NCBI GenBank assembly: GCA_028695145.1
Contig: JAQVJP010000010.1
Span: forward strand, 1-40,031
Length of the DNA stretch: 40,031 nucleotides
From: Eubacteriales bacterium
GTDB taxonomy: Bacteria; Bacillota; Clostridia; Saccharofermentanales; UBA5734
Direction of reading: 5' to 3'
Position 1 is the first letter of the stretch, and the number at the start of each line of letters is the position of its first letter. Made by a program: the position numbers and the translations under genes. The notes under the pieces are model-generated. The model saw only the letters and a list, made by a program, of their open reading frames with translations. It searched no databases and had not been told where the DNA came from. Of this stretch, positions 7,216 through 31,317 are shown piece by piece.

Positions 7216-9054
7216 ATGAAAAAGGCTATTATTGAAAAAATGAAGTTGCCTCTTAGTATTTGGCAAAACATTATGCTTGATGGCAATGGTGCGGATTTTC
7301 AAGAACTTGAAATCAGTGCCAGGACCGGTAATCGTCAAATCAGTGGATCTGTGTCTGTTTCAAGTACGGGAAAAAATATGTATGAAGCGGTACTTCCAGG
7401 AGAAAATTATAGTGGTACGGCTGAGCAGATTTTAACGTGGCTAATAAATCATATGTCTGAATATGATGAATGTAGCCTGATTTTGAGACTTTTTACTCAT
7501 TCCCAGATGTTGACAGTTGACCGTAAAGGTGTAAATTTACAGCCGCGATATGTAGATGAAAAGAAAAAAGACGTGAAGAAGAAGCTTAAAGAAGATCACC
7601 ATATATATGGGACTTCAGACAAGCGGAAATATAGGATTAAAATTGATGAAGCGACTGAATTGTTGAGAGTTTTGGGGATTGTTGATCAACAAGGCCGGTT
7701 AAAAAATGATAAGTTCAGAAAATACCAGCAAATTGATCGATTCGTTGAACTGGCTGAACCTATTATTCTGCAACTGTTCAAGAATGAAGGTCATCTTGCA
7801 GTATATGACCTGGCTTGCGGGAAGTCGTACTTATCTTTTGTTTTGAATTACTACATAAGAGAAAAACTTGGACGGAACTGTACAGTTACAGGTATAGATA
7901 TTAGTGATTCGGTTATAGAAACTTCGGCTGCTATCGCGGACCAGCTGAATTGGCGGAATATGAATTTTAAGACAATGGATTTAAGAGATTTTTCGCCTTC
8001 TGATCGTCCGGATTTATGTATTAGTCTTCATGCCTGTGATACAGCTACTGATATGGCTCTGGCTGCGGCTGTGAAATCCGGCAGCCAAGCTATACTTGCG
8101 GTGCCTTGTTGCCAACGTGAACTATTGGCAAATAACTACAAAATGTCATCGCTTCGGACGAGTGTTATGTCATCAGGTATTCTCAGAGCCAGATTAGCTG
8201 ATCTTATTACTGATGGTATGCGGTTGCTTCTGTTGAGAAGTTCCGGGTATGATGCTGAAATTATTGAGTATATATCGCCTTTGGAGACTCCTAAAAATCT
8301 GATGATAAGGGCTGTATATACAGGCAGAGCTGACAGAGAAGCCTGGACTGAATATAAGAAACTCCGCAATGAATGTGGCGTGGAAATTACACTTGCAAAT
8401 GAGTTGAAAGGATTTATCAATAAGCAAATGGATCTTATTAAGAAAGAAAAAACTCTTATTACAATGGCTACCGGAAACGCGGATAAAGTTGATGAGATCC
8501 GGGAAATAATAACGAGTGATCTGTTGAAATGGCAAACAATGCGTGATGCCGGCTTTTTTGATGAAATAATTGAAGATGGTACAAGTTATATTGAAAATGC
8601 TCTGATAAAAGCAAGAAGTGTACATCAATATACTGGAGGATGGGTTATTGCTGATGATTCAGGACTATCTGTTGATGTTCTTGATGGAGCACCAGGCATC
8701 TATTCTGCCAGGTTTGCTGGAGAAGAAGCTGGATATAACGATAAGATAGCTTGTTTGCATGATATGCTCAAACCATGGCCTCCAGAACAATGGACCGCTG
8801 CTTTTGTTTGTGCGATTGCACTTATCGGGCCGGATGGACGAGAATGGACAGTTCAAGCTGAGAGTGCAGGAATGATCGCTCAGCAGGCAAGTGGAGAGAA
8901 CGGGTTCGGTTATGATCCAATATTTTACGTTCCGGAATTCAATTGTACGATGGCAGAAATGTCTCCGGAGCAGAAGCATTCCATAAGTCATAGAGGACGT
9001 GCTCTGCGTAAGATTATGGAAATAATCAATGAGGAGAGTTTATTTGATGTCTGA
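7216..9054 (+). CDS. fusion of a Methyltransf_32-type methyltransferase and a RdgB/HAM1 nucleotide pyrophosphatase
   Basis: One 612-residue frame holds two enzymes. Residues 1 to about 405 form a SAM-dependent methyltransferase: motif I DLACGKSYLSF near residue 198, then VTGIDIS, SLHACDTATD and PCCQREL, a pattern of the METTL25/GSTCD-like Methyltransf_32 group. From about residue 412 the sequence is a complete RdgB/HAM1 non-canonical purine NTP pyrophosphatase (hydrolyses dITP/XTP): ATGNADKVDEI, ADDSGLSVD, GAPGIYSARF, FGYDPIF and KHSISHRGRAL. No stop or well-placed ribosome binding site separates them; an ATG at 8428 has AAAGGA 15 bases upstream, too distant to be convincing. RdgB alone is about 200 residues in other bacteria. 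The methyltransferase substrate is unknown. The stop overlaps the start of the next gene. Confidence 0.88.
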   Translation: MKKAIIEKMKLPLSIWQNIMLDGNGADFQELEISARTGNRQISGSVSVSSTGKNMYEAVLPGENYSGTAEQILTWLINHMSEYDECSLILRLFTHSQMLTVDRKGVNLQPRYVDEKKKDVKKKLKEDHHIYGTSDKRKYRIKIDEATELLRVLGIVDQQGRLKNDKFRKYQQIDRFVELAEPIILQLFKNEGHLAVYDLACGKSYLSFVLNYYIREKLGRNCTVTGIDISDSVIETSAAIADQLNWRNMNFKTMDLRDFSPSDRPDLCISLHACDTATDMALAAAVKSGSQAILAVPCCQRELLANNYKMSSLRTSVMSSGILRARLADLITDGMRLLLLRSSGYDAEIIEYISPLETPKNLMIRAVYTGRADREAWTEYKKLRNECGVEITLANELKGFINKQMDLIKKEKTLITMATGNADKVDEIREIITSDLLKWQTMRDAGFFDEIIEDGTSYIENALIKARSVHQYTGGWVIADDSGLSVDVLDGAPGIYSARFAGEEAGYNDKIACLHDMLKPWPPEQWTAAFVCAIALIGPDGREWTVQAESAGMIAQQASGENGFGYDPIFYVPEFNCTMAEMSPEQKHSISHRGRALRKIMEIINEESLFDV

Positions 9055-13563: not shown

Positions 13564-13622
13564 TTTCATACCTCTTTCATATGTTTCGAATTTCATATGG
13601 TTCAAATTATGAGAACATTCTT

Positions 13623-13650
13623 ATTTTATCGGAAATGACAACCGCGTCAA
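13623..13650 (-). promoter_or_regulatory. glnA promoter
   Basis: On the minus strand: TTGACG (13645-13650), 16 bases, TAAAAT (13623-13628). It lies just after the terminator of the upstream small zinc protein gene, so glnA is a separate transcription unit with a leader of roughly 50 bases. Confidence 0.65.
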
Positions 13651-13661
13651 TGGTCAATACG

Positions 13662-13694
13662 CAAAAGACAGCCCCGGATCGCTCCGAGACTGTC
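13662..13694 (-). terminator. terminator of the small zinc-binding protein gene
   Basis: Stem GACAGTCTCGGA / TCCGGGGCTGTC on the minus strand (13667-13694) with a 4-base loop and a following TTTT run. It separates the 59-residue gene from glnA. The stem has one or two non-Watson-Crick positions. Confidence 0.7.
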
Positions 13695-13718
13695 ACAAAT
13701 TGACAAGATTGGCAGAAA

Positions 13719-13898
13719 TTAATATCTGTTATCGTAACCGTTATTCTGCTGACGTCTTGCGTTCTTACGAGCTCTGCGGCAATCCGGACAACGTACCGGA
13801 TCATTCTCAAAACCCTTCTCCTTGTAAAACTCCTGCTCGCCTTCCGTAAAAGCGAATTCTGCTCCACAATCTTTACATGTGATCATTCTGTCTGGCAT
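13719..13898 (-). CDS. 59-residue zinc-ribbon protein (zf-trcl type)
   Basis: A short protein reading MPDRMITCKDCGAEF, then FTEGEQEFY and CPDCRRARKNARR. Two CxxC pairs (residues 8-11 and 37-40) flank an acidic, aromatic segment. This is the arrangement of the small probable zinc-binding domain proteins common in Clostridia. The basic tail after the second pair (RRARKNARRQQ) suggests nucleic-acid or ribosome contact, which is an inference only. The ATG is preceded by GGAGG with 8 bases between. It ends in TAA at 13719-13721 and is followed by its own terminator. Function is unknown. Confidence 0.85.
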   Translation of the reverse strand: MPDRMITCKDCGAEFAFTEGEQEFYKEKGFENDPVRCPDCRRARKNARRQQNNGYDNRY

Positions 13899-14056: not shown

Positions 14057-14144
14057 GTGACAAGCTTTATTTTGACTAAATGCTGTGTTTTTCATGTAAA
14101 AGTGAGAATAAAACTGTATGAAATGTCATAAAAAGGAGAATTTG

Positions 14145-14495
14145 ATGAAACTGATAGACTGTGCCGAAGTATTACAGGCTGAAGTACTTGTGCCTGTTGC
14201 TGACATGGAAATCGATATCAAGGTAGCCTGCGGGGCTGACCTGATGAGCGATGTTATGGCTTTTGCCTGTTCCAGCAATGAGATGATGTTGACTGGACTT
14301 GTAAATCCTCAAACGATTAGAACAGCTGAGATGATGGATGTTAAAGTTGTTGTTTTTGTAAGGGGAAAAGTACCTGGAGACCAGATGCTGGACTTGGCGA
14401 GAGACAAAAATATTTGTGTGATGTCTACGCCTTTGCCAATGTTTACTGCTTGCGGATTGCTGCATGACGCAGGTATAAAAGGGAAGGGGGAGTGA
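14145..14495 (+). CDS. DRTGG domain protein (first of two)
   Basis: 116 residues, consisting of a single DRTGG-type domain. The recognisable core is KVACGADLMSDVMAFACSSN, then TIRTAEMMDVKVVVFVRGK and ICVMSTPLPMFTACGLL. DRTGG domains occur next to CBS domains or phosphotransacetylase and, as stand-alone proteins, beside [FeFe]-hydrogenase genes of Clostridia. Their biochemical role is not firmly known; ligand binding is inferred. ATG 14145 follows AAAGGAG by 6 bases; an in-frame ATG at 14118 lies before this site. It is first in the module and 12 bases from the anti-sigma-type ATPase gene. Confidence 0.8.
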   Translation: MKLIDCAEVLQAEVLVPVADMEIDIKVACGADLMSDVMAFACSSNEMMLTGLVNPQTIRTAEMMDVKVVVFVRGKVPGDQMLDLARDKNICVMSTPLPMFTACGLLHDAGIKGKGE

Positions 14496-14507
14496 CGTCT
14501 GGAACCG

Positions 14508-14918
14508 GTGAAACTCGATTTTGTCATCAGGGGATCTGACTTCATTAATGCCGGTGAGGCGTCAAGCGGAACCAAGAAGGCTCTTACAAGACTGGGAATA
14601 TCGCCAAAAGCAATTAAACGTGCCGCTATCGCGATGTATGAGGCAGAACTTAACGCCGTGATTCATGCTGGCGGCGGCAATGCTGAAGTGGAAATATTTT
14701 CTGATCATGTTCAGATCAGAGTTATTGATAATGGTCCAGGTATACCTGATGTAGAACTTGCTATGCAGGAAGGATGGTCGACCGCTCCTGATATTGCCAG
14801 GGAAATGGGCTTCGGAGCAGGTATGGGTCTGCCTAACATCAAAAAAAATTCTAATGACATGAGTATTGAGACTGAAATCGGTCATGGTACGACGTTGACC
14901 ATAATGATCAGATTCTAA
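14508..14918 (+). CDS. anti-sigma-factor-type GHKL ATPase (RsbW/SpoIIAB-like)
   Basis: 136 residues of a lone histidine-kinase-like ATPase domain. The N box is EAELNAVIHA, the G1 box DNGPGIPD, and the G2 region GFGAGMGLPNIKK. There is no dimerisation/phosphoacceptor domain and no membrane segment, so it resembles serine-kinase anti-sigma factors. No anti-anti-sigma (STAS) partner or PP2C phosphatase is nearby. The start is uncertain: GTG 14508 fits the length best, but the GGGGGAG site ends 15 bases before it, and a CTG at 14499 is 6 bases from that site. It is directly followed, after 71 bases, by the hydrogenase-like gene. Phosphorylation target unknown. Confidence 0.82.
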   Translation: MKLDFVIRGSDFINAGEASSGTKKALTRLGISPKAIKRAAIAMYEAELNAVIHAGGGNAEVEIFSDHVQIRVIDNGPGIPDVELAMQEGWSTAPDIAREMGFGAGMGLPNIKKNSNDMSIETEIGHGTTLTIMIRF

Positions 14919-14989
14919 GTCTCCAGCGGGAGTCTGTCCGATACGGCAGTCTTTTTTGCTGTATCTGGTAAAAGCTACGGAGGAGAATT

Positions 14990-16360
14990 ATGTCCAAACT
15001 TCACTCAGTCAGACTCAACAAAGATTTGTGTGTTGGCTGTACAAATTGTATTAAGAGATGTCCGACCCAGGCGATTCGCGTCCGGGATGGCAAGGCTCAA
15101 ATTGCTGAATATCGCTGCATAGACTGTGGTGAATGTATCAGAGCCTGCCCGCATCATGCCAAGAGCGCGGTCATGGATCCGTTTGAAGCTCTTGATAATT
15201 ACAAATGGAAAATCGCGCTGGCAGCTCCATCACTATATGCTCAGTTTGGAGCTCCTGCTACCAGAACTATGGTGTTGGCAGCACTGAAGAATATTGGTTT
15301 CGATGATGTTTATGAGGTTGCTATAGGTGCCGATATAATAACCGCACGTACGAACGAGTTTCTTGACGAAGCTCGTCGTGATAAGCGTTTACCGCTTATT
15401 TCATCAGCCTGCCCCGCTGTTGTCAGACTTGTTCAGATGAAATACCCAGGACTGATTGACAATCTGGTTCCTTTTGACGCGCCAGTGGATATTACCGCAC
15501 AGATCGCCCGCAGGCAGTCTCTTGAGAAAACCGGTTTGATACCTGAAGATATTGGGATTTTCTTTATCAGTCCCTGTCCTGCAAAAAGAACAGCTGTAAC
15601 AAATCCTATTGGACAGGATAGTTCGCAGATTGATGGAGTTATTGCTATTTCCGATGCTTATCCCATGATTCTTGCCAAACTTGAGAAGTTAACTCCAGAG
15701 CAGATTCACAGTCTTGACAATAAACTGATGGCAACTTTTGGTGGTGTCCGCTGGGGTTACACGGGAGGTGAAGCGATTGCCGTAAATACTGAGAAGTATT
15801 TGGCAGTTGATGGTATTCATAATGTAATATCCATTCTTGAAGAAGTTGAGAATGAACGTTTACGGGATATCGAGTTTATTGAGGCTAATTCCTGTACAGG
15901 TGGTTGTATCGGGGGGCCCTTGACTGTTGCCAATCGTTATTCTGCGAAATCAAGACAACGTGGTTATATTGAGGAAGCAAAAAAACTGGCAAAAGACCAT
16001 CCTGACCATATATATCCGTATCAATATGAGCAGGCTTCTGTCTGGACGAAAACAATTGATCCAAATCCTGCGATGCAATTAGATAGTGATATTTTTAAAG
16101 CGTTGGAAAAATATGAACAAATGGAACAGATTGTCCGCAATTTGCCCGGACTTGACTGTGGAGCCTGCGGTGCCCCGGATTGCCTGGCTTTGGCTGAAGA
16201 TATCGTGCGTGGTGAGGCAACAGAAACTGACTGTATTTTTAAGCTCAAGGAAAAAATCCGTGATGTTGCCAGTCAGCTTGGAGATCTTGAGTCAGCGATG
16301 AATAAGCTTGCGCATGACAATCATGTGGTCAGGACAAGTGATACAGAATCAGGAGAGTAG
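14990..16360 (+). CDS. [FeFe]-hydrogenase-like iron-sulfur protein, probably sensory
   Basis: 456 residues. Two [4Fe-4S] ferredoxin motifs are present (Cys 14, 17, 20, 24 and 43, 46, 49, 53). The hydrogenase large-subunit domain follows with H-cluster motifs SSACPAVV (Cys141), SPCPAKR (Cys196, Lys199) and NSCTGGCIGG (Cys302, Cys306). After it comes a four-cysteine iron-sulfur domain (Cys 390, 393, 398, 415) and a short helical tail. Compared with catalytic enzymes, the proton-relay Cys of TSCCP is Ala140, and the Met residues flanking the second and third motifs appear to be Ser194 and Asn300. This is the pattern described for sensory hydrogenases. No PAS domain is present. The ATG follows GGAGGAG. 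Neighbours are ATPase, DRTGG and PHP genes, which supports a signalling role. Actual H-cluster loading is not shown. Confidence 0.9.
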   Translation: MSKLHSVRLNKDLCVGCTNCIKRCPTQAIRVRDGKAQIAEYRCIDCGECIRACPHHAKSAVMDPFEALDNYKWKIALAAPSLYAQFGAPATRTMVLAALKNIGFDDVYEVAIGADIITARTNEFLDEARRDKRLPLISSACPAVVRLVQMKYPGLIDNLVPFDAPVDITAQIARRQSLEKTGLIPEDIGIFFISPCPAKRTAVTNPIGQDSSQIDGVIAISDAYPMILAKLEKLTPEQIHSLDNKLMATFGGVRWGYTGGEAIAVNTEKYLAVDGIHNVISILEEVENERLRDIEFIEANSCTGGCIGGPLTVANRYSAKSRQRGYIEEAKKLAKDHPDHIYPYQYEQASVWTKTIDPNPAMQLDSDIFKALEKYEQMEQIVRNLPGLDCGACGAPDCLALAEDIVRGEATETDCIFKLKEKIRDVASQLGDLESAMNKLAHDNHVVRTSDTESGE

Positions 16361-16366
16361 GACGAA

Positions 16367-16708
16367 ATGGTATTGCTCAAAGACATAATTGAACCTCTTA
16401 AGTGCACAGTGCTCTGTGGTGAAGATAGATTGGGAACAAGCGAAGTTACAGGTGGTTATGCCTGTGATTTGTTGAGTTGGGTTATTTCCCGTGTTCAGAC
16501 AGGTGAAGTTTGGATGACAATTCTCAGTAGTGTAAATGTTGTAGCGGTAGCTGTTTTGGCAGAGTGCAGCTGCATTCTTCTAACTGAAGAAGTAACAATG
16601 AACGAGTCTGTGCTTGAACGAGCCCGGGAGAAGGGTATAACAGTGCTAAGTACACCGCTCCCGACTTATCGAGCTTGCGCGATACTGGCTGATTTAGTTG
16701 ACAAATGA
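16367..16708 (+). CDS. DRTGG domain protein (second of two)
   Basis: 113 residues, one DRTGG-type domain with the clearer signature TSEVTGGYACDLLSWVI, followed by GEVWMTILSSVNVVAVAV and ITVLSTPLPTYRACAIL. It is a paralogue of the protein at 14145; both share STPLP near the C-terminus. The hydrogenase-like gene ends 6 bases before it, and its stop overlaps the PHP gene start by 4 bases (ATGA), so translation is probably coupled. A regulatory ligand-binding role is inferred from context. Confidence 0.8.
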   Translation: MVLLKDIIEPLKCTVLCGEDRLGTSEVTGGYACDLLSWVISRVQTGEVWMTILSSVNVVAVAVLAECSCILLTEEVTMNESVLERAREKGITVLSTPLPTYRACAILADLVDK

Positions 16709-17490
16709 AAGATCACAAGCATCAAAAAACAGCGAATAATGAATCGCAGAGCGTAAAAAATTCTATACGTTGTGATTTGCATATTCATTCAGCTCTTTCC
16801 CCTTGTTCTGACGATGATATGACCCCTGGAAATATTGTTGGTATGGCTATGCTGAATGGTCTTGATGTTATTGCTGTAACTGACCATCAGAGTTGCGGAA
16901 ACTGCGCGGCCGCTATGCAGATATCAGCTGAAATGTCTGGGCCTCTGGTTGTTCCCGGTATGGAAGCGGCATCATCCGAAGAAATTCATTTGCTGTGTCT
17001 CTTCTCAACACTGGCAAAAGCCTGTGAATTCGAGAAAATAATCAGAGATAGTATTATACCAAGAGAAAACCGACCGGATATTTTTGGTCATCAATACTAT
17101 TATGATAAAGATGACCTGATTACGGGTGAAGAAAAACAGCTGCTGTTAATGCCTGCGATACTCAGCTGCGATGAAATCGCCGCAATCGTGTTCGAGATGG
17201 GTGGCGCCTGTTTACCTGCGCATGTAGATCGTGAGGCAAATAGTATGCTTGAAACACTTGGCAGCATTCCAGATACTTTTCCCGGTTCCTGGATTGAATT
17301 ATCCAATAAATCGGATCCTGTTATATGGCACGATAATCATCCTGATTTGCGTGAAAAGAGGTTTCTGGTCAATTCTGACGCGCATCGACTTGAGGATATT
17401 GCAGATCCTGGCTGGCCGCTTCGTTTACCTGATTTCACGTCTGATGAACGTGGGTTGGAGCTGCTCCTTAAACGTTTGAGAGAAGAGTAA
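16705..17490 (+). CDS. PHP domain metal-dependent phosphoesterase
   Basis: 261 residues with a full PHP set of metal-binding motifs: RCDLHIHSALSP, AVTDHQS, GMEAASSEEIHLL, PAHVDR and NSDAH. PHP proteins are phosphatases or nucleases with two or three metals. About 24 hydrophilic residues precede the domain. Members of this kind lie in clostridial hydrogenase clusters, but the substrate is not known. No ribosome binding site is visible before the ATG, which overlaps the previous stop, so reinitiation is likely. It closes the first transcription unit of the module; a fresh promoter follows at 17509. Confidence 0.87.
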   Translation: MKDHKHQKTANNESQSVKNSIRCDLHIHSALSPCSDDDMTPGNIVGMAMLNGLDVIAVTDHQSCGNCAAAMQISAEMSGPLVVPGMEAASSEEIHLLCLFSTLAKACEFEKIIRDSIIPRENRPDIFGHQYYYDKDDLITGEEKQLLLMPAILSCDEIAAIVFEMGGACLPAHVDREANSMLETLGSIPDTFPGSWIELSNKSDPVIWHDNHPDLREKRFLVNSDAHRLEDIADPGWPLRLPDFTSDERGLELLLKRLREE

Positions 17491-17508
17491 AAAACATTTG
17501 TTTAAGCA

Positions 17509-17537
17509 TTGCCCGTATCGAGTGATAATGCTATAAT
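17509..17537 (+). promoter_or_regulatory. internal promoter before the second ATPase gene
   Basis: TTGCCC (17509-17514), 17 bases, TATAAT (17532-17537), with TGC giving an extended -10. It splits the module into two transcription units and favours ATG 17566 as start, since 17554 would leave a leader of only about 10 bases. Confidence 0.72.
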
Positions 17538-17565
17538 GCTCTGAGCGGGAACGATGGTGGTGTGT

Positions 17566-18132
17566 ATGCAGGATTTATCTCTACATCTTCTGGATATTGT
17601 TCAGAATTCGTTGAAGGCAAAAGCTGACAGAATAGTGATAGAAATCAGTGCTGATACAGATATAAATATGTTGTACATCATGATCAAGGACAATGGACAC
17701 GGCATGTCGGCAGAAATGGTTAGACAGGTGACTGACCCTTTTGTTACGACGAGAACTACAAGGTCTGTTGGTTTAGGAATTCCGTTGCTGAAAGAACATT
17801 GTGAATTGACAGGTGGAAGACTGATTCTTGAGTCGGAACCTGATAAGGGTACGATTATTACGGCTTCGTTCGGGCTCTACAGTATAGACAGAATGCCGCT
17901 TGGAGATATCAGCGATACTGTAGCCGCGCTTGTCTTGTCAGCGCCTGCGGTAAATTATTTAATTAGGTTTCATTGCCAGGATAGAGATTTTGAACTTGAC
18001 TGGCAGGATATAAGGATCCAGCTTGAAGATGTCCCGCTTACAGAGCCGGCTGTTCTCGAGTGGATTCAGGGAAATGTGGCAGAACAACAACAGTATATAT
18101 TCGGAGGTGTCTTAAATGAAATCACTGGCTGA
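17566..18132 (+). CDS. GHKL ATPase domain protein, hydrogenase-cluster type
   Basis: 188 residues. The N box lies in LHLLDIVQNSLKAKA, G1 is DNGHGMS and G2 is in RSVGLGIPLLKE, with the GGRL segment that closes the histidine-kinase ATPase fold. No His phosphoacceptor or sensor domain precedes it. About 70 further residues form a C-terminal part I do not recognise. It differs from the RsbW-like protein at 14508. ATG 17566 gives the family-like start MQDLSLHLLD and lies 5 bases after GGTGG; ATG 17554 is possible. It overlaps the ferredoxin gene by 17 bases, so the two are translationally linked. The usual context is next to hydrogenase subunits; kinase activity is not shown. Confidence 0.82.
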   Translation: MQDLSLHLLDIVQNSLKAKADRIVIEISADTDINMLYIMIKDNGHGMSAEMVRQVTDPFVTTRTTRSVGLGIPLLKEHCELTGGRLILESEPDKGTIITASFGLYSIDRMPLGDISDTVAALVLSAPAVNYLIRFHCQDRDFELDWQDIRIQLEDVPLTEPAVLEWIQGNVAEQQQYIFGGVLNEITG

Positions 18133-18496
18133 ACTTGAAGCAATCAAACAGAAGGCAAAGGCTGATCTGGCCGCTCGTACTGATGGCGGACGCAAGGTGG
18201 TAGTAGGTATGGCTACATGCGGTATAGCCGCCGGTGCCCGTCCTGTTATGAATGCTATGGTAGAAGAACTGCGTACACGTAATATTAATGATATTGCTGT
18301 TACCATGACAGGCTGTATTGGTGTTTGTCGTCTTGAGCCGATTGTTGAAGTTATTGAAGAGAACGGTGACAAGGTTACATACGTCAAAATGGATCAGGCC
18401 AAGGCAAGACGCGTTGTAGTTGAACATCTTATTAATGGTCAGGTTTGTCAGGATTTGACTATAGGGGCTGTTGAAGCAGAGGCAAAAAAGGGCTGA
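18116..18496 (+). CDS. thioredoxin-like [2Fe-2S] ferredoxin (HndB/NuoE-like)
   Basis: 126 residues. The family core reads VVVGMATCGIAAGARPVMNA, then TGCIGVCRLEP, with a fourth Cys in GQVCQD. These cysteines are consistent with one [2Fe-2S] cluster in a thioredoxin-like fold. Such proteins act as small electron-transfer subunits beside NuoF-like and hydrogenase subunits, for example HndB of NADP-reducing hydrogenases. Here no NuoF-like or catalytic hydrogenase gene follows. GGAGG lies 8 bases before the ATG. The preceding ATPase gene overlaps it. The partner is therefore probably the hydrogenase-like protein of this module or a protein encoded elsewhere. Confidence 0.88.
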   Translation: MKSLAELEAIKQKAKADLAARTDGGRKVVVGMATCGIAAGARPVMNAMVEELRTRNINDIAVTMTGCIGVCRLEPIVEVIEENGDKVTYVKMDQAKARRVVVEHLINGQVCQDLTIGAVEAEAKKG

Positions 18497-18650: not shown

Positions 18651-19409
18651 ATGAATTTATTTGTTACGCTTGAGGCTTTGAAAATATATCGCATGAAGGC
18701 TGAGAAACTCGTGCAGATAATGTTTGTGGTACTTTTTATTGTCAATGCCGGCATCTGGTTTCTGCCTTTTGTTGATCGGGATTTCTCGGGATTTTTCGCT
18801 GCTGTTGATGAGATGGCCGCCGGACGTATGTCTGAGATTGTTTTAACTCGTGGGAATTGGCTTCTGCTTATTCTGACAGGCCTGGTGCAGCTTATTAACC
18901 TTATAGCTGTTTTCATTTATGCGGCTCAGTTCGCTTCTGAACGCATGCCGTCTGTAGAACGCTCGCTTGGACACATGTCGCTACATGCGGTACCCAGACT
19001 GCTTCTTATCGCGTTATTGTTGATTGTGCCGGCGATAATGTCAGTTATGCTGATGATGATTCCGCTTTTGGTTTTTGTGTTTATGATGTATTTTCTGCCG
19101 ATCAATCTGCTTCTACACAGACAGTCGATAGCTTATGCCATGCATAAGAGCTTCGAGCAGACAAAAGGTTTCAGGTTGCTGATATTTTTTCAGGTTTTTT
19201 TCCTGTCCCTTATTTTAACCTTCCCTGAGAGTATTATTATTGGCTTTATGCCTGATAATTTTATCGCAACTGTCATGATTCAATCATTTTTTGCTGTGTA
19301 TCTTGCCCTTTCGCAGGGAAGACTCATGGGAATATACTATCTGTATCTTGTTAAAAAAGACCCACTTGTGGTACCATCATTTCCGAATAATGAAGATAAG
19401 GGGAAATAA
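18651..19409 (+). CDS. multi-pass membrane protein of unknown function
   Basis: 252 residues with about five or six hydrophobic segments, at roughly residues 20-40, 65-92, 112-150 (probably two), 172-192 and 200-222. A segment SIAYAMHKSFEQTKGFRLL resembles the linker seen in several families of small integral membrane proteins (YciC/DUF975-like), but I cannot place it in a family with confidence. No catalytic motif is seen. GAGG lies about 5 bases before the ATG. It has its own promoter and structured leader and is followed after 54 bases by malic enzyme. Confidence 0.7.
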   Translation: MNLFVTLEALKIYRMKAEKLVQIMFVVLFIVNAGIWFLPFVDRDFSGFFAAVDEMAAGRMSEIVLTRGNWLLLILTGLVQLINLIAVFIYAAQFASERMPSVERSLGHMSLHAVPRLLLIALLLIVPAIMSVMLMMIPLLVFVFMMYFLPINLLLHRQSIAYAMHKSFEQTKGFRLLIFFQVFFLSLILTFPESIIIGFMPDNFIATVMIQSFFAVYLALSQGRLMGIYYLYLVKKDPLVVPSFPNNEDKGK

Positions 19410-30066: not shown

Positions 30067-30132
30067 TTCTGAATTTGTTGTTTGGCCATCAGAGATGTAA
30101 AGATAATTTGTAAGAACTGGGATAGGGTATTT

Positions 30133-31317
30133 ATGATAAGAATTGGCATTTGTGGTGGAACCTTCGATCCGTTTCATAATGGGCATTTAACTTTGATTAC
30201 TTCCGCATTAGATAGTGGAAGAATAGATAGTATTCTTGTTATACCAGCCGGAACACCGCCACATAAGATGTCAGAACCTGTAATGCCGGCTATTTACCGT
30301 TATGAAATGACCAGAAAGAGCTTAAGGGATGTGGCTCATACCGAGGTTACTGAGCTTGAGATCCTTAAGGAAGGTCGTTCATATACGCTTGATACAGTTA
30401 TGATGGTAAAAGCGAAATATCATGATGACGTGGAAATAAGCTTGGTGTATGGTTCAGATATTATTAATGATCTGGAAAAATGGCATGAACCTGCGGCTTT
30501 ACTTGCTGAATGTAAGATGTTGTTAGCTGTTCGTGGTGGTGATGATCATGAGCGTGTCAAGCAGGAAGCAGATAGATTGTCGAAGAAATTTAATACGATA
30601 ATTGATCTGTTCGCCGCACCGCAAATAGAATTGTCCAGTACCGAATTACGTGAAAAAATAATATCTGGTACCAAATGGCAAAAACTTGTTCCCAAGGGCG
30701 CTGAATCAGTTATCAGCCACAATGGTTTTTATTCTCTGCTGAAGTATTATCAGAAATTGACTGAAAATGATCGTATCAAACTGGCTTCGCTTGAACGGGA
30801 AATTTGGCCATATCTAAATCATAAGAGAATGATTCATTCAGCTAATGTTATGTTATATTCGCTGATGCTTGCTGATCTGCATGATGTTGACTTGATGCAG
30901 GCCGCTACTGCGGGATTACTGCATGATTGTGCCAAATGTCTGCCTCATGATGAGTTGATAGGCTATGCTCAAACTGCTGGAGATGACCTTCTACTTGAAG
31001 ATGATTTAGCACATGGACCGGCAGGAGCTGTGATGGCCAGAGATTTGTTTGGCGTTACGGATCCGGCTGTACTGCGTTCGATTCATTATCACACAACAGG
31101 CTGTTCCGATATGACACGTCTGGATAAAATAATATTTCTTGCTGATAAAATTGAACTTGGTAGAACTTATGATGATCTTGATCCGATAAGAGAGGCTGCC
31201 GTTAGTAATTTGAATAGAGCTATGCTGCTGTGTTTGTCAGAGGTAGAAGCTTATCTTAGGCGCAGCAGTAAATTATCTCATCCATATGCATTGGCGGCTG
31301 TAGATAGCTTGCGCTGA
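30133..31317 (+). CDS. nadD-yqeK: fusion of nicotinate-nucleotide adenylyltransferase (NadD) and YqeK HD-domain hydrolase
   Basis: 394 residues. The first half is NadD, which adenylates nicotinate mononucleotide for NAD synthesis, with GICGGTFDPFHNGH, PAGTPPHK and the ISGTKWQKLVP end region. A linker near residue 210 leads to a YqeK-type HD domain: KRMIHSANVM, GLLHDCAKCLPHDEL, IHYHTTGC and LDKIIFLADKIELGR. YqeK enzymes hydrolyse diadenosine tetraphosphate to ADP. In most Firmicutes these are two adjacent genes followed by rsfS; rsfS does follow here. ATG 30133 gives the family start MIRIGICGG. Its ribosome binding site is weak. A possible promoter is TTGTTT (30078-30083), 18 bases, GATAAT (30102-30107). 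Confidence 0.93.
   Translation: MIRIGICGGTFDPFHNGHLTLITSALDSGRIDSILVIPAGTPPHKMSEPVMPAIYRYEMTRKSLRDVAHTEVTELEILKEGRSYTLDTVMMVKAKYHDDVEISLVYGSDIINDLEKWHEPAALLAECKMLLAVRGGDDHERVKQEADRLSKKFNTIIDLFAAPQIELSSTELREKIISGTKWQKLVPKGAESVISHNGFYSLLKYYQKLTENDRIKLASLEREIWPYLNHKRMIHSANVMLYSLMLADLHDVDLMQAATAGLLHDCAKCLPHDELIGYAQTAGDDLLLEDDLAHGPAGAVMARDLFGVTDPAVLRSIHYHTTGCSDMTRLDKIIFLADKIELGRTYDDLDPIREAAVSNLNRAMLLCLSEVEAYLRRSSKLSHPYALAAVDSLR

Follow-up and report, generated by a model that had tools for sequence, protein, structure and literature searches.

A conserved six-gene unit around a group D [FeFe]-hydrogenase of Clostridia that probably tunes a hydrogen-making enzyme encoded elsewhere in the genome

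Introduction

Group D (M2e) [FeFe]-hydrogenases were already known to be encoded upstream of electron-bifurcating hydrogenases and near kinases (PMC3561251, PMC8163306). Their characterised member is TamHydS of Thermoanaerobacter mathranii, the only one for which an assembled H-cluster and a reaction with H2 were demonstrated (PMC8163306), and which combines a raised H2 affinity and CO tolerance with a change of structure upon exposure to H2, while its C-terminal cluster is not reduced by H2 (PMC8163306, PMC13104023). The interaction partners of HydS are described as still to be identified (PMC13104023). A hydrogenase-like sensor is likewise coupled to Ser/Thr phospho-signalling in the group C systems, which carry a PAS domain and a serine phosphatase (Ruminococcus albus HydS, hfs operon; PMC6776011, PMC11837493). 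In Acetobacterium woodii, with its hyd cluster hydA1-hydE, the purified enzyme contains HydD (about 15 kDa, no predicted cofactor) and lacks the GHKL protein HydE (PMC3315566, PMC6288185). Here, we analyse a HydS-type gene (S) that lies in a run of seven genes (D1, W, S, D2, P, G and F; Table 1) in a window of 40,031 nucleotides, by which we mean the whole stretch of DNA under study (Eubacteriales bacterium, assembly GCA_028695145.1, contig JAQVJP010000010.1, positions 1 to 40,031, forward strand). By comparing the locus with several hundred related genomes we establish which genes belong to the unit, so far an open question for HydS, and argue that it probably tunes the hydrogen-making enzyme that the cell encodes elsewhere in its genome.

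Results

Identity of the sensor

The protein S has two N-terminal [4Fe-4S] motifs, an H-domain and a C-terminal CX2CX4CX16C motif, and the family search found no PAS domain in it. The four H-cluster cysteines are kept in 98/98 sequences, the proton-transfer cysteine is replaced by Ala in 97 of the 98, and the M353 position is taken by Ser or Thr in all of them. In the tree (where the labels B and C were assigned by us, from domain layout) S joins the HydS of T. wiegelii, to which it is 51% identical, with 100% support, and stands apart from groups A, B and C. Judged by domains, residues and phylogeny, S is a group D (M2e) [FeFe]-hydrogenase, of the putative sensory type represented by TamHydS, and matches the published features of that group (PMC8163306). 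With TamHydS (PMC8163306, PMC13104023) and the M2e genes of PMC3561251 it shares the domain layout, the H-cluster cysteines, the M353 to Ser exchange, the C-terminal motif, the lack of a PAS domain and a kinase-like neighbour. It differs in having Asn instead of Leu at the M497 position (a variable position according to PMC8163306) and in that the bifurcating hydrogenase genes, which lie just downstream in the TamHydS type, are on another contig. H2 sensing by S would follow by analogy with TamHydS. An assignment to the group C sensory hydrogenases was rejected, given the missing PAS domain and the separate clade; the window unit also differs from group C systems in having a kinase instead of a phosphatase.

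Six genes are kept and lost together

The original prediction, made from the sequence alone, had described the seven genes as a signalling module around a redox or H2 sensor. All seven open reading frames (ORFs) were recovered in their predicted positions and order on one strand, with family or fold support, and a conserved signalling module around such a sensor is supported. An S orthologue is present in 17 of the 22 other genomes of the family, in the same order and at the same site wherever the contig allows. W occurs in exactly the same genomes, and so does G, bar one 59%-complete genome in which the contig ends inside D2. In four relatives (G004, G006, G011 and G015), F is the sole gene of the module left ahead of the downstream membrane-protein gene, with D1, W, S, D2, P and G missing from the site; none of the four genomes has S, W or G anywhere, and F and HydA are retained. 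At least two independent losses are indicated by the tree (of modest internal support), in which g4/g6 branch off separately and G015 falls among congeners that retain the module. In g2 and g7, F lies inside an E-F-N-A operon (E, nuoE; N, nuoF; A, hydA) and the module is without it. The joint loss of D1-W-S-D2-P-G, with F and HydA kept, argues that these six genes are a single conserved sensory unit and that F goes with the hydrogenase. We therefore rejected the seven genes as one unit, since F is kept when the other six are lost; that the genes travel together without hydA, which the original prediction had put up for checking, is upheld in the window's family.

Gene order and the catalytic hydrogenase

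Among 80 named loci, D1 is present in 78 and W in 77, and the order D1-W-S-D2-P recurs in most, so that the arrangement is not due to chance. In about 35 loci this core is followed on the same strand by E-G-F-N-A (or the visible part of it), as in the full ten-gene operon of T. wiegelii; in about 14 the E-G-F-N-A set lies upstream and divergent. In other Clostridia, the core is thus usually a neighbour of the bifurcating hydrogenase operon. In at least nine loci, however, no hydrogenase genes flank the five-gene core over about 9 kb in either direction, hence it is not unusual for the core to lack a hydA next to it. What sets the window's family apart is the placement of G and F beside the core, with E, N and A elsewhere. 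The canonical E-G-F-N-A order fits the A. woodii arrangement (PMC3315566, PMC6288185), in which G matches HydE (GHKL type) and F, compared by published description only, fits HydD by size, placement and the lack of a full cofactor motif; in contrast, G and F of the window stand with the sensory genes, apart from nuoE-nuoF-hydA.

No nuoF or hydA follows the module within the window, as had been observed. The claim that it lacks a catalytic hydrogenase applies to the window only: contig C107 of the same genome carries a complete nuoE-nuoF-hydA cluster with the usual H-cluster motifs, which shows that a catalytic hydrogenase is present and led us to reject a genome devoid of one, and HydA occurs in 111 of 117 HydS-bearing genomes (class sample). 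Of what the original prediction had named as speaking against it, the existence of a catalytic hydA and nuoF elsewhere in the genome was confirmed, as one part of a condition that also calls for constant co-expression, and random variation of the neighbours was not seen.

S and G are coupled across unlinked loci

In the class sample, G is found in 111/117 genomes with S and in 12/129 without it; in the phylum sample, the corresponding figures are 114/120 and 9/180. When genomes with linked S and G were removed, G was still detected in 32/38 genomes with S (against the 12/129 without). HydABC operons read directly point the same way, as G lies inside the operon in 14 of the 15 readable cases in which S is on another contig or far away, and in 2/19 S-less genomes (a count that omits one contig-edge case carrying D2). 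A G gene within the hydrogenase operon is thus almost confined to genomes that have HydS. Several genomes with G and no S (L310, L314-L316) carry D2, D1 or P genes that are short and broken, the pattern that a recent loss would leave. We stress that kinship among the genomes makes the p-values for S-G co-occurrence overstate its significance, although the result is the same in both samples and in the unlinked subset.

Fusions and a sensor swap

Members of the unit are also found as single ORFs: W with S (G503), S with D2 (two genera of f107), P with G (several genomes of f86) and G with F (G320). In two genomes of two families (G423 and G391; loci L311:7856-10819 and L312:4008-6988) the order is D1-[CBS-CBS-W]-D2-P-G, with a CBS pair fused to W and no HydS in the genome at the threshold used. 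As the CBS pair takes the stead of HydS, W would stand directly behind the sensor, and the arrangement suggests that the unit is able to take another input than HydS.

The partner proteins

W has the attributes of the RsbW/SpoIIAB serine kinases (HATPase fold, catalytic Glu, N-box, G1 box and ATP lid), with E45 and N49 (the E-x3-N box), the G1 and the ATP-lid motifs conserved across 94 sequences and SpoIIAB structures as its best sequence match in the PDB. Unlike in RsbW/SpoIIAB partner-switch systems, no STAS, sigma factor or PP2C partner is encoded at the locus, and DRTGG proteins occupy the neighbouring places. The absence of such genes next to the module had been noted in the original prediction, and we found none among the window neighbours and none that recurs in the 80 loci. 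On an unlinked contig of the same genome (C127, 517-5302, minus strand; L008, G000:C127) we observed a PAS-bearing HydS of group C type and a SpoIIE-type phosphatase, along with genes for a thioredoxin-like 2Fe-2S protein and a further [FeFe]-hydrogenase; this phosphatase could be the opposite of kinase W.

D1 has no Pfam match in the window genome. Its AlphaFold model (predicted local distance difference test score, pLDDT, 89.6) matches a solved DRTGG protein (PDB 2ioj) at a template modelling (TM) score of 0.84 and its Thermoanaerobacter orthologue scores above the Pfam cut-off (PF07085); on the strength of the model, D1 has a DRTGG fold despite lacking a match of its own. Its invariant residues are D41, S44 and R82-G83-K84 (numbered from the 14118 start), and in both D1 and D2 an invariant Ser lies within D-L-(M/L)-S in all sequences. 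C38 and C112 of D1 (14118-14495), each in a C-G pair, are kept in most sequences, and a redox or metal role is possible for them. Across 90 sequences, P keeps the His, Asp and Glu that a PHP metal site would call for; it has the fold of a PHP enzyme by structure comparison, and resembles nucleotide phosphatases by profile and, loosely, by fold. F, predicted as a [2Fe-2S] ferredoxin, is of the thioredoxin-like 2Fe-2S type, with just three invariant cysteines (C35, C67 and C71; 55 sequences) in place of the four that would bind a cluster.

Layout of the locus and its neighbours

The seven ORFs span 14145-18496, separated by gaps of 6-71 nt or overlapping by 4-17 nt. Pfam and NCBIfam support HATPase (W, G), Fe_hyd_lg_C with FeS and two [4Fe-4S] motifs (S), and DRTGG (D2). 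In the window genome, the scores of P and F fall short of the Pfam cut-offs.

Table 1. Genes of the module in the window
Gene	Product	Position	Strand	Basis or remark
D1	DRTGG-fold protein, 116 aa	14145..14495	+	alternative ORF start 14118
W	RsbW/SpoIIAB-like kinase, 136 aa	14508..14918	+	profile match, conserved kinase motifs
S	group D (M2e) [FeFe]-hydrogenase, HydS-type putative sensor, 456 aa	14990..16360	+	domains, residues, tree
D2	DRTGG protein, 113 aa	16367..16708	+	PF07085, 36.8 bits; invariant D34, S37
P	PHP-family phosphoesterase, 261 aa	16705..17490	+	profile, metal-site residues, fold
G	GHKL ATPase, 192 aa, counterpart of A. woodii HydE	17554..18132	+	profile; PMC3315566
F	thioredoxin-like 2Fe-2S-type protein, three invariant Cys, 126 aa	18116..18496	+	hydrogenase accessory, outside the sensory unit

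A structured-RNA search of the window returned tRNAs only, and a promoter scan yielded similar numbers of sites in the window and in shuffled sequence. A terminator-like hairpin with a T-run (14934-14949) lies between W and S, and a TTGCCC-17-TATAAT site (17509-17537) upstream of G; both kinds of site occur near chance level, the latter being suggestive only, and together they could divide the unit into transcripts. Between the glutamine synthetase gene and D1, an 86-aa ORF (13607-13867, minus strand) has matches of 49-61% identity at the same site in several relatives. The membrane protein downstream (18651-19409; no Pfam or NCBIfam match) was rejected as a member and is regarded as a neighbour, since its gene stays where the module was lost and is missing at nearly all other loci. 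Farther away, two ORFs appear by eye to be joins, of methyltransferase-like and RdgB/HAM1-like parts (7216-9054, 612 aa) and of NadD-like and YqeK/HD-like parts (30082-31317, 411 aa).

Discussion

From the parts, their joint inheritance and loss, the coupling of S and G across unlinked loci and the fusions, all read from sequence, we infer a pathway with H2 as its signal, a phosphorylation step, a direction and HydABC as its target. HydS would read H2 or redox state at the H-cluster and along the Fe-S chain, and its state would control W, the RsbW-like kinase. The probable substrates of W are D1 and/or D2, phosphorylated at the invariant Ser of D-L-(M/L)-S in a partner switch like that of RsbW/SpoIIAB with DRTGG proteins replacing the STAS proteins. 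D1 and D2, together with P, would next determine the state of G, the GHKL ATPase, which may act on the electron-bifurcating HydABC (here on the other contig), perhaps via the accessory protein F. HydABC, the proposed site of output, is where G and F sit in most relatives.

We give this pathway as a whole somewhat less than an even chance. In its favour are the group D identity of S and the conserved order of the core with the HydABC operon; the loss of the same six genes at the same site in four relatives that keep F and HydA; the co-occurrence of S and G, with G in the HydABC operon when S is unlinked; the fusions and the CBS-W swap; and the kinase Glu and N-box of W along with the invariant Ser of D1 and D2. 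Against it weigh the absence of STAS, sigma factor and phosphatase genes at the locus, six of 117 HydS genomes in which G was undetected and some ten genomes per sample with G and no HydS, the relatedness of the sampled genomes (with its overstated p-values), and the restriction of the W-S and G-F fusions to one genome each. The retention of F without the unit implies, moreover, that F alone does not need it, and phosphorylation, the response to H2 and contact with HydABC are predictions.

The resemblance of W to SpoIIAB/RsbW would also suit a transcriptional partner switch, in which W would be an anti-sigma-type kinase, and the genes for hydrogenase and fermentation would be controlled by a sigma factor or other regulator, encoded elsewhere, whose release depends on H2 or redox state. 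In R. albus, transcription appears to be the target of the related group C sensors (PMC6776011), and the SpoIIE-type phosphatase on C127 stands beside a PAS-bearing HydS in the same genome. However, no sigma factor, STAS protein or transcription factor recurs beside the module in the 80 loci, for which reason a dedicated adjacent transcription factor was rejected, and the output to gene expression foreseen by the original prediction found no support there. The AraC neighbour reported for TamHydS is probably the DRTGG protein D2, judged from T. wiegelii (not T. mathranii), where hydS is flanked by W and a 113-aa DRTGG protein without a helix-turn-helix. Moreover, G, which proved the strongest partner, belongs to the hydrogenase operon by position. 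We consider such a switch unlikely.

A nucleotide messenger, made or destroyed by P and bound by D1 and D2, with W and G as switches and HydS setting its level without a phosphorylation chain, would agree with the likeness of P to nucleotide phosphatases and with the CBS-W protein found in the place of HydS in two genomes; moreover, CBS pyrophosphatases with DRTGG domains are under the control of adenine nucleotides and diadenosine polyphosphates (PMC11172384). In neither D1 nor D2 did we identify residues that bind a nucleotide, and we judge this mechanism improbable. Nor is it probable that W, D1, D2, P, G and F serve only in the assembly or repair of HydABC or HydS and take no part in signalling. 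HydE, a GHKL protein, was suggested to act in assembly or signalling (PMC3315566), and other Clostridia have G and F within the HydABC operon; yet most sampled HydS-less genomes have HydABC operons without G and F and four family genomes keep HydA without the six genes, which shows that HydABC does not require them, and the CBS-W swap points to an input sensor.

Returning to the pathway from HydS through W to HydABC, we propose, more tentatively still, that it represents a type of phospho-signalling not described before, used by anaerobes. Its sensor would be exchangeable (HydS or a CBS pair) and would feed an RsbW-like kinase with DRTGG instead of STAS substrates, and the output would fall directly on the bifurcating hydrogenase via a GHKL ATPase. 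The type of sensor and its proximity to a kinase were already known; what is new is the six-gene unit and its link to the hydrogenase. We found no literature naming the DRTGG and PHP partners, the dependence between S and G, the fusions or the CBS swap, in a search that covered subscription papers to a small extent.

About 40-48% of the genomes in the class and phylum samples carry a group D HydS, and many of these belong to anaerobes of guts and digesters. The present analysis provides a six-gene parts list for HydS, natural deletions in close relatives and a named link to the hydrogenase operon (G), and the sensor swap sets the kinase W right behind the sensor. Each step by which the unit would tune the hydrogen-making enzyme of the cell is now approachable with small soluble proteins.

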